From Adineta ricciae (taxonomy: Eukaryota > Rotifera > Eurotatoria > Adinetida > Adinetidae): a stretch of DNA of 64,000 nt. Location of the stretch: assembly GCA_905250025.1 (NCBI GenBank), contig CAJNOJ010000058.1, forward strand, positions 1-64,000. Direction: 5' to 3'. Each line of letters starts with the position of its first letter. The first letter of the stretch is position 1. Shown one piece after another: positions 40,024 through 43,031 of this stretch. Both the position numbers and the translations under genes were made by a program. The notes under the pieces are model-generated. The model saw nothing but the letters and a program-made list of their open reading frames with translations, did not search any database and had not been told where the DNA came from.

Positions 40024-41435
40024 CTATTTATAAGTAATCAGGTATTCGGGTAAAATGTGTCTATTTGAAAAAACAACATGAATATTTGAACGACCTGCTA
40101 CTGAATCATAACCGGGTGGACACATTGATTCCTTCCAATTTCCTTTACAGCTCTGACCAGTGAGTACTCTGCACATAAGAATTCGTTTTTCGTTGGTCAA
40201 CGGATTTCGCAAAGCATATTGATCACTAAGTGATCGACTGGATGAGAAATAGAAGCCACGTCCATAAGAGCTACCTGTAGAATACATATTCATCATAGAA
40301 ATCTAGAAGTTATCATTCAGATATAGAATCTTACCATTCGCCCCAATACGTCCGTGATCAAATCCGTGGCGTAAAATCTGTTCAGCCGCAGCATAAGGAC
40401 ATCCGTGGAATAAAAGCTTTTCTGTATTATCATGACCAAGCCTATTATCTACCAATTGTTTTTGATTGAGATATTCTATTAACCATACAATATTGTCAAT
40501 TCGATGAACATGAACAATCGATGATGCACCGCCATCGAAATCATCAGCAACTCTTTGAAATTCATCAGACTCTTTCAGTACTTCCGTGAGTGTGCTCGGT
40601 GGTACGGACCAGTTTTCTTTTGAAATATGTGTTAATGGCAAACCAGTTGTGTCGGGTAAACCAAAACGCGGACAAAATACACCAGATGTTTGAGTAAGCA
40701 AAACAAACATTTCGTCAATCGACATATCACCATGAATAACACAATCAACTTTTACTTCGCCACGTAAAATGATTAAACAGATCAATAGTGGATATATTTC
40801 TTTCGGTGATGAATCAATGACAGCAGCTACCTCTTCTCCTACATGTTCAATAATAATACTCAAGAGTCTATAAAATTCAATCGAAGATCGTTACTCATTT
40901 TCGTTTCGTATCTTCAACTCACTCAAAATAATTTTCTTCGGTTAGATTCCATGACCATAGACCAAATTGTTCCATCAGACAAGCACGCATTTCTTCCGAT
41001 TTTGAAATAGTCCAATTAAAAAGTTCTGTCTTTATATTTGCATTATCATATATGTATAATGCCAACGGTCGAGACTAAAACATAGCGAACATGTGTATCT
41101 GTTTTTGAAAACAACCTCTTAAAGTACAATAGTTGCTCCATACAAAGAGTTAGATAAAGCTTGTTCGAACGATTGTTGACAAAATGATGCCAATGACCAT
41201 GGAGACTGATCAATAGGCCGTTCGCAGGAGAGGTCTTGTTCCAAAACTGGAAAATGCATGATTTAATTGACTTCAATGTAACCTTTCACTTGCCTTGTCT
41301 TACCTTCACTCTCATCGATTGATGTACACGACTCTGTTTTCGTTGTTATCTAAAAAGATTCTCAATACTTAAAGTTTCGCGATAGGAAACTCTGAATTAG
41401 CATACTAAAGTTTCAGTTGTTTGCAATGTTTCCAT
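40024..41435 (-). CDS. UAS-PARP fusion, predicted mono-ADP-ribosyltransferase
   Basis: Six short exons on the minus strand join from METLQTTETL (ATG at 41435) to the stop at 40024, about 370 residues. Residues about 40-175 form a UAS domain as in FAF1/UBXD8: SFEQALSNSLYGATI, RPLALYIYDN, FGLWSWNLTEENYFE, then PLLICLIILRGE and DMSIDEMFVLL. Residues about 215-370 form a PARP catalytic domain: EKLLFHGCPYAAAEQILR, YGRGFYFSSS, YDSVAGRSNIHVVFSNRH, ILPEYLITY. The triad reads H-Y-I, the mono-ADP-ribosyl type rather than the H-Y-E polymerase type. A phase-0 donor at the ATT codon before SRPLALY is inferred to keep the UAS frame open. It presumably marks proteins in a p97/ubiquitin-like or lipid-linked setting; this is inference. 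Confidence 0.8.
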
Positions 41436-42238
41436 AACTTCTCTTTGGTACACTATAGTTTTATCAAATGGAAACAGGAGAAATGATGTTGTAAGTTTTA
41501 AATATAATATCCCAGGCAAATTCCCATTTAGTTTACGTTAACAACGCGTCATACGTTAGAGAGAAAGAAAAAAGCAAATAGGCAAACAGAAAAAATACCA
41601 ACATAGTATCACAATGTATGGAAAAAAACCGGATCATTTTTCCTAGTAAACTAAAATAAAATGAGTATGACATACTTCAAAATGTATAAGATATCTGCCT
41701 GTTGACTGATATGATAAACCATAGGCAAGTTTAGTGATGGGAATTAACGAAAAAATGACATATACAAGTATGATGATTTGGCTTTACATTGAATCACTGA
41801 CCAAACATTCTTTATGTGACTTTTCACCTGTCGAGTAAGTGAATATGAATTTCATCATGCTGACTTTCAACAATTCTCAAAAATCATTTATCATAGTAAA
41901 GTCAGCCATATAGAAATGTGTAAAAGGAGATATTGGAACAATAATCAAGTTTCGATCATTAGATGAATTCCCGAATATTGACAAACACTGTCAAAACGAA
42001 TGATTCACTTATACTCTCTCGAGATGATACAAATCATAATTGAAACTTTCGATTGTTTTAGATAAACAAAAACCGATGATGTACTCCTCCCCTTCTCCAC
42101 GTCAATCGCTAACAATCGTGAATTGATGCACATTGTATTTCTATCATCTCTCGCTTACTTCGATCGATGCACTCAGGCATAAAATAGTCAAGATGTGACG
42201 ATGTCTGTCGCATCATTAATAAGATATTTATTAAAATT
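41436..42238. other. Intergenic spacer
   Basis: No gene supported. It holds the 5' flank of the UAS-PARP gene and the 3' flank of Orai. Confidence 0.45.
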
Positions 42239-43031
42239 TTAATGATTTCCATCGATATGAAATTCTACAGTTGTGGTCGGCGTAACAACAGGATTGTTGA
42301 GTAAAAGTCCCCGAGCAATAGCTCCCTGTTCGATCTTTTCCAAATCCGTTTGATGTAAATGAACTTTGGCTCGCGTGACACGAAAATAAAAACCAATTGC
42401 GAATAAAATAAATGGACAGCCAACAAGACACAGTGTCACAAGCGCTGATATTGCCGCTAGACGAGAGAATCCACTAACTTTAATCCAAATGATAATTCCC
42501 AATTCGATTATAAATAAAAATAAGCCAAGTCCAGTCGAAACGACCCAAGCTATTTCGATATAAATATTCAACGACGATAGCGGTTTACTATTTTCATTAT
42601 TTATCCACACATCACTTTGACGGATTACACTTTTCAATTCAGGTAAAATACACATCGACATCAATAATGCAAGAAGATGTATTCCAACTAACAGACATGA
42701 GATAATAGCATAGCAAACGAGTAGATTATCATTTGAACTATGATCTTTGTACGAATCTAACGATAATTCTACGATTGCAACCTTTGAAACAAAAGCAAAG
42801 CAAGGCTCGATAAGAAAGATGCGAGATCAGTGACTTACGATAGCAAATCCGCTGAGTAATGCAGACGTTTCATTGACACTCTCGAGTTTTGATTTACGGT
42901 AAAATAGATTTTGTAAGCGTTGGTCTGCTTTACCCGTTTTTCCTAAACAAACAATCGTTTGCATTAACGAAACAATGTATTTATTAATTAAATTTACCTT
43001 TCGTGGACAAATACAATGACGAATCAGACAT
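42239..43031 (-). CDS. ORAI: Orai store-operated calcium channel
   Basis: Three exons on the minus strand, from the ATG at 43031 (MSDSSLYLSTKG) to 42239, about 230 residues, shorter than human Orai1 (301). TM1 has ETSALLSGFAIVAIVELSL with the pore glutamate in place. TM2 has VGIHLLALLMSMCILPEL, TM3 IEIAWVVSTGLGLFLFIIEL and TM4 VGCPFILFAIGFYFRVTRAK, then a Q/E-rich helical tail for STIM coupling. The channel admits calcium after ER store depletion. In the extended TM1 helix the residues aligned with human K87 and R91 are both glutamate. The TM3-TM4 linker is short. Confidence 0.93.

Follow-up and report, generated by a model that had tools for sequence, protein, structure and literature searches.

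A bdelloid rotifer gene joining a FAF1-type UAS domain to a PARP14/15-like catalytic domain

Introduction

PARP catalytic domains fused to domains of the ubiquitin pathway are already known. The available excerpts of one survey describe UBCc, UBA or RWD domains together with PARP6/8, a U-box in Dictyostelium clade 3 and a UIM in PARP10 (PMC4245714). A further ubiquitin-system domain, the UAS domain, is a thioredoxin-like domain without a CxxC motif (PMC8181520). The UAS domains of human FAF1 and FAF2 bind long-chain unsaturated fatty acids (PMC8181520, PMC10080908), and their fatty-acid-induced polymerization needs two positively charged patches, according to the excerpted text of PMC8181520. 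The UAS domain of UBXN7 binds the RING domains of RNF111, RNF165, and TOPORS, whereas those of FAF1 and FAF2 are reported in the same study not to bind RNF111 (PMC10080908). In Adineta vaga, 17 PARP genes are described as over-expressed 2.5 h following irradiation and 9 upon rehydration (excerpts of PMC10809525), which provides a setting only and is not specific to the gene described below.

Here we describe a gene of the bdelloid Adineta ricciae in which a FAF1-type UAS domain and a PARP catalytic domain stand in one reading frame. It lies in a 64,000-nucleotide stretch (contig CAJNOJ010000058.1, positions 1 to 64,000), referred to as the window. No report of a UAS-PARP protein appeared among the matches listed from a partial collection of the literature, the only kind of source searched, and the statement in the original prediction that no such pair has been described is upheld to that extent. 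The pairing of UAS with PARP therefore looks new.

Results

All reading frames of the region were listed, and the minus strand was read and spliced by eye at GT-AG sites. The resulting gene model, with splice sites inferred in this way, runs on the minus strand from a start ATG at 41435 to a stop codon at 40026-40024, exactly the extent originally predicted (40024-41435). Its six exons are separated by GT-AG introns and add up to 1,131 nucleotides, with the frame kept throughout, encoding 376 amino acids. The features are as follows; names such as C68 and C46 stand for contigs of the same genome, on which two further copies lie.

41406..41435, minus strand: exon 1, start ATG and N-terminal tail; the C68 copy has this ATG and the GTATGC donor too
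41304..41349, minus strand: exon 2, N-terminal tail; kept with its splice sites in C68
41128..41246, minus strand: exon 3, start of the UAS (SFEQALSNSLYGATI), followed by a phase-0 intron; in the C17 and C1 FAF1 genes and the C46 copy, a phase-0 intron occupies this place, ahead of RPL/QPL
40923..41074, minus strand: exon 4, UAS core (RPLALYIYD...WSWNLTEENYFE), followed by a phase-2 intron; the FAF1 genes and C46 share this phase-2 intron, which precedes LL
40335..40867, minus strand: exon 5, the fusion exon, with the C-terminal half of the UAS, the linker and the N-terminal half of the PARP domain, including catalytic H270 (40405-40407); from splicing
40024..40274, minus strand: exon 6, C-terminal half of the PARP domain, with Y302 (40249-40251), I358 (40081-40083) and the stop; phase-1 intron before this exon common to PARP genes on C340 and C406
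40696..41190, minus strand: UAS domain, residues 45-173, split by introns; PF21021, E = 2.6e-18
40024..40560, minus strand: PARP catalytic domain, residue 219 to the end, split by one intron; PF00644, E = 8.1e-18; PARP15, 3.7e-17

Exon 5 is the part of the gene that joins the two domains. It lies inside an uninterrupted stop-to-stop frame of 195 amino acids (40303-40890) that leads from the UAS into the PARP domain. Scanned alone, the two halves of this exon stay below the Pfam cut-off (E = 7e-4 for the UAS part and 1.5e-3 for the PARP part) because each domain is cut by an intron. An alternative start at the ATG at 41259, inside intron 2, was rejected, since that ATG is not conserved in C68 while exons 1 and 2 and their splice sites are.

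On the minus strand at 41436-41454, directly before the start ATG, an AG is followed by TGTACCAAAGAGAAGTT, an arrangement kept in C68. This could be a trans-splice acceptor, as the genome has spliced-leader copies. The query for these was what we take to be the bdelloid spliced-leader sequence; it has no exact match in the genome, but 46 matches with up to three mismatches, 41 of them with one, and none when the pattern is read backwards. This agrees with a rotifer host and indicates a bdelloid. Nearly all copies begin with T where our query has G, and many form opposed pairs, most of them with a spacing of about 153 bases (for example, C6:235175-235350 and C8:338768-338943). The upstream neighbor (minus strand, 42242-42826) matches Orai-1, a CRAC calcium channel (E = 2.3e-29). 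A scan of 41300-41700 for promoters of the bacterial type, which is not informative for an animal gene, found none.

Searched against Pfam, the spliced protein matches the FAF1 UAS family (PF21021) at residues 45-173 with 66.6 bits (cut-off, 27; E = 2.6e-18), covering profile positions 14-144 of 146, and the PARP catalytic family (PF00644) at residues 219-356 with 65.1 bits (cut-off, 26.7; E = 8.1e-18). These were the only two families above their cut-offs; neither a UBX domain nor a macro domain was found in the 376 residues. The original prediction of a UAS and a PARP domain in one gene is thus borne out, both domains passing their cut-offs and a single exon spanning them. The nearly full profile match agrees with its assignment of the UAS to the FAF1 type. 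A profile search at residues 40-175 had been set beforehand as a refuting test, and the domain was found there; all eight motifs quoted in that prediction are also present in the spliced protein.

Among sequences of the PDB, the UAS half matches the human FAF1 UAS domain (2ec4; 1e-9, 26% identity over 130 columns), and the PARP half matches human PARP15 best (3.7e-17), followed by PARP14 (3.4e-14). The histidine and tyrosine of the NAD+ site are present as H270 and Y302. In the alignment, the third position of the triad is I358, opposite the catalytic glutamate that a PARP1-like protein from this genome has within NEYIVY. A hydrophobic residue in place of the catalytic glutamate goes with mono-ADP-ribosylation, and the H270-Y302-I358 triad therefore predicts this activity for the protein. 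The H-Y-I triad had been named from the first reading and aligns as in mono-ADP-ribosyltransferases, but the isoleucine had been placed in the wrong motif: it belongs to NIHVVF rather than to ILPEYLITY.

In the genome searched (130.46 Mb), UAS exons gave 22 matches, of which those on C58, C68, and C46 are fused to PARP. PARP exons gave 125 matches, a large PARP set. The C68 copy (matches at 320397-321444) has six exons with identical lengths and splice positions and encodes 376 residues without any indel. The introns of the two copies are 89 to 95% identical, and flanks of 565 and 400 bases are 86% and 89% identical over ungapped columns. Because introns and flanks are similar, the C68 gene is, judged from its sequence, a collinear sister copy of the window gene, either an allele or a homoeologue. 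The catalytic H and Y are present in both copies, as are the loop YGRGFYFSS and the strand PEYLITY; no indels or stops interrupt them, and the C68 PARP domain scores 71.1 bits in Pfam. The two copies differ by 28 synonymous changes (247.2 sites) and 45 nonsynonymous changes (880.8 sites), giving a dN/dS of 0.43 (Fisher p = 0.0011). By domain, the ratio is 0.40 for the PARP domain (p = 0.011) and 0.28 for the N-terminal tail (p = 0.033); the values for the UAS (0.54; p = 0.33) and the linker (0.69; p = 0.70) are not significant, so this pair shows no clear constraint on the UAS.

The third copy, at C46:86685-87911, is more divergent. Spliced by eye, its frame is open and encodes a UAS followed by a similar linker and a PARP-like end; all three intron positions compared agree with those of the window gene. 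In a two-sequence comparison with the window protein across the linker and the early PARP region, 21 of 63 residues are identical (E = 2e-10). Its UAS is recognized more strongly than that of the window gene (Pfam E = 1.9e-34), and no PARP domain was seen by Pfam up to E = 1. LLYPC stands in place of LLFHG, and the stretch corresponding to YGxGxYF (YGRGFYF in the window) is missing from the frame as spliced. It appears that the C46 branch kept its UAS and lost catalysis, while the branch of the window gene and C68 kept the catalytic residues and changed its UAS. The C46 copy (loci L031/L046), without the catalytic His and the Tyr loop, is possibly a pseudo-ADP-ribosyltransferase.

Apart from C183, the nearest PARP match to any UAS match on the other contigs is at least 17 kb away, the remaining PARP rows having been read by eye. 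On C183 the two matches are 1.9 kb apart, but a fourth fusion was rejected here: the PARP match lies upstream in an open frame of its own, and the UAS is followed by a C-terminus of the F-box-like type. Sequence inspection covered the UAS matches other than those on C26, C34, and C186 and the second match on C183. Further decayed UAS-PARP fusions could have been missed, because the PARP search missed the decayed PARP domain of C46.

At seven loci, namely L039 (C642), L040/L041 (C293), L042/L045 (C256), L044 (C8), and L048 (C183), the UAS is followed by a different C-terminus of about 280 amino acids that looks F-box-like by eye. Four C-termini of such UAS genes were scanned; one gave an F-box at E = 0.012, below the cut-off, and three had no family. 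We therefore do not count these genes as certain F-box proteins; as read from their sequences, they are a possible second UAS fusion family with a possible link to ubiquitin.

Intron positions bear on the origin of both halves. With splice sites inferred, two introns interrupt the UAS of the FAF1 genes on C17 and C1, one of phase 0 ahead of RPL and one of phase 2 ahead of LL; C46 and the window gene have both. Joined sequence from the C17 gene also matches UBX (5.7e-08), which is what a FAF1 gene should show. Both introns seem to be present in an F-box-like UAS gene on C293 as well and thus indicate a relationship to the FAF1-type UAS genes collectively rather than to FAF1 itself. The window UAS is 27% identical to each of the FAF1 genes of the same genome and 26% identical to human FAF1, compared with 18 to 23% for the other six UAS sequences outside the fusion family; as a relative, FAF1 itself is thus favored by identity only. 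On the PARP side, a phase-1 intron near the YGxG loop is common to the window gene, C46, and the paralogues on C340 and C406. The upstream stretches of three paralogues were scanned, and those of the C406 and C340 genes (two of the three) contain macro domains. The best PARP matches of the same genome outside the fusion family are C105 and C406; the better of these, C105, has no intron near the YGxG loop, and Pfam found no macro domain in the one upstream stretch tested. Intron positions thus tie the UAS part to FAF1 genes and the PARP part to macro-PARP genes. On the simplest account, a PARP14/15-like macro-PARP gene contributed its 3' exons, and exons for a FAF1-type UAS became joined to them.

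Trees agree with this account only in part. The UAS tree places the three fusion copies in one group (93/94); the wider side, which adds the two FAF1 genes and C49, reaches only 69/74, and human FAF1 falls outside it. The UAS domains of the window gene and C68 sit on a long branch (1.7). The PARP tree is poorly resolved, with long branches, low support and poor rows for C364 and C46, and we did not name a PARP sister from it.

Discussion

We favor, with moderate confidence, the reading that this gene encodes a mono-ADP-ribosyltransferase of the PARP14/15 branch in which a FAF1-type UAS domain has replaced the macro domains as the part that chooses partners. The UAS would serve for protein docking and so carry the catalytic domain to certain partners, and the enzyme would attach single ADP-ribose units to the docked partners or to itself. 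By analogy with the UBXN7 UAS, parts of the ubiquitin system would be plausible partners and the likeliest class. Since the UAS domains of FAF1 and FAF2 do not bind RNF111, docking to RING E3 ligases cannot be carried over from UBXN7 to a FAF1-type UAS. The further suggestion of the original prediction, that the protein acts near p97, finds no support in the sequence, no UBX domain (the p97-binding part of FAF1) having been found.

The same prediction had proposed a lipid-sensing ADP-ribosyltransferase; on this reading, the UAS would bind long-chain unsaturated fatty acids, polymerize, and so switch or gather the PARP domain. The UAS is of the FAF1 type, and the human FAF1 and FAF2 domains bind such fatty acids (excerpts of PMC8181520 and PMC10080908), but it is acidic. 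It has 7 K/R against 19 D/E (pI 4.3); the corresponding counts are 13/13 for the human FAF1 fragment, 14/16 and 12/14 for the two FAF1 genes of this genome, and 12/16 for C46. Of the 13 basic positions in the human fragment, it retains two, as does C46, whereas 5 and 6 are retained in those two FAF1 genes. The acidic charge weighs against lipid sensing, with the reservation that the 13 positions are all the basic ones, among which the patch residues are not singled out. With two positive patches described as essential (PMC8181520), lipid sensing is unsupported, and we consider it very improbable. A decoy or sensor in conflict with pathogens, in which the FAF1-like UAS lures foreign proteins directed against FAF1 or its pathway and the PARP domain marks whatever has bound, is also improbable, if slightly less so. 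The 125 PARP exon matches, the joining of UAS to another C-terminus in other genes, and the link of vertebrate PARP14 and its kin to antiviral ADP-ribosylation and fast evolution (excerpts of PMC12687431) would fit such a role; the dN/dS values between the window gene and C68, however, are below 1, not above it.

Loss of catalysis deserves more weight, though it is still unlikely. The fusion might survive as a binding protein or be on its way out, as the C46 copy illustrates: its frame is open, yet it has LLYPC for LLFHG, lacks the YGxGxYF stretch, and has no PARP domain visible to Pfam. Activity has therefore not always been kept in the fusion family. The long branch of the window and C68 UAS domains points the same way. 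The intact H, Y, YGRGFYFSS, and PEYLITY of the window gene and C68, free of indels and stops, together with the low dN/dS of their PARP domains, argue against this for the window gene itself. That two adjoining genes were read as one has next to no probability. Although splicing was done by eye, both halves lie in exon 5 with no stop or intron between them, and the arrangement recurs on C68 and C46; we therefore reject this artifact. We return, then, to the UAS-guided mono-ADP-ribosyltransferase. A wider and distinctly speculative extension is that bdelloids made the FAF1 UAS a movable recognition module, duplicated and joined to PARP here and to F-box-like C-termini elsewhere. Such proteins might serve as lineage-specific sensors or adaptors, tagging what they bind with ADP-ribose or ubiquitin, perhaps in defense against pathogens or in response to desiccation damage.

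The gene naturally unites an ADP-ribosylating enzyme with the UAS, about whose role in FAF1 little is known. Should substrate choice lie with the UAS, the fusion would give a lead to the binding targets of FAF1-type UAS domains. The protein resembles FAF1 in its UAS profile match, and both introns within the UAS lie where the FAF1 genes of the same genome have them; no UBX was found, however, its UAS is acidic, and PARP is its only other Pfam domain above cut-off. UBXN7 offers a precedent for UAS as a docking module of the ubiquitin system, but its UAS is divergent from that of FAF1 and, in the excerpts of PMC10080908, differs from FAF1 and FAF2 in RNF111 binding. PARPs with ubiquitin-pathway domains share the principle of a PARP catalytic domain fused to a ubiquitin-system domain, although the terms "UAS" and "UBX" do not occur in the main text of the survey (PMC4245714). 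The catalytic half is closest to PARP14 and PARP15, its best PDB matches, and has the phase-1 intron of the macro-domain genes on C340 and C406; where those macro-PARPs carry macro domains, the fusion carries a UAS.
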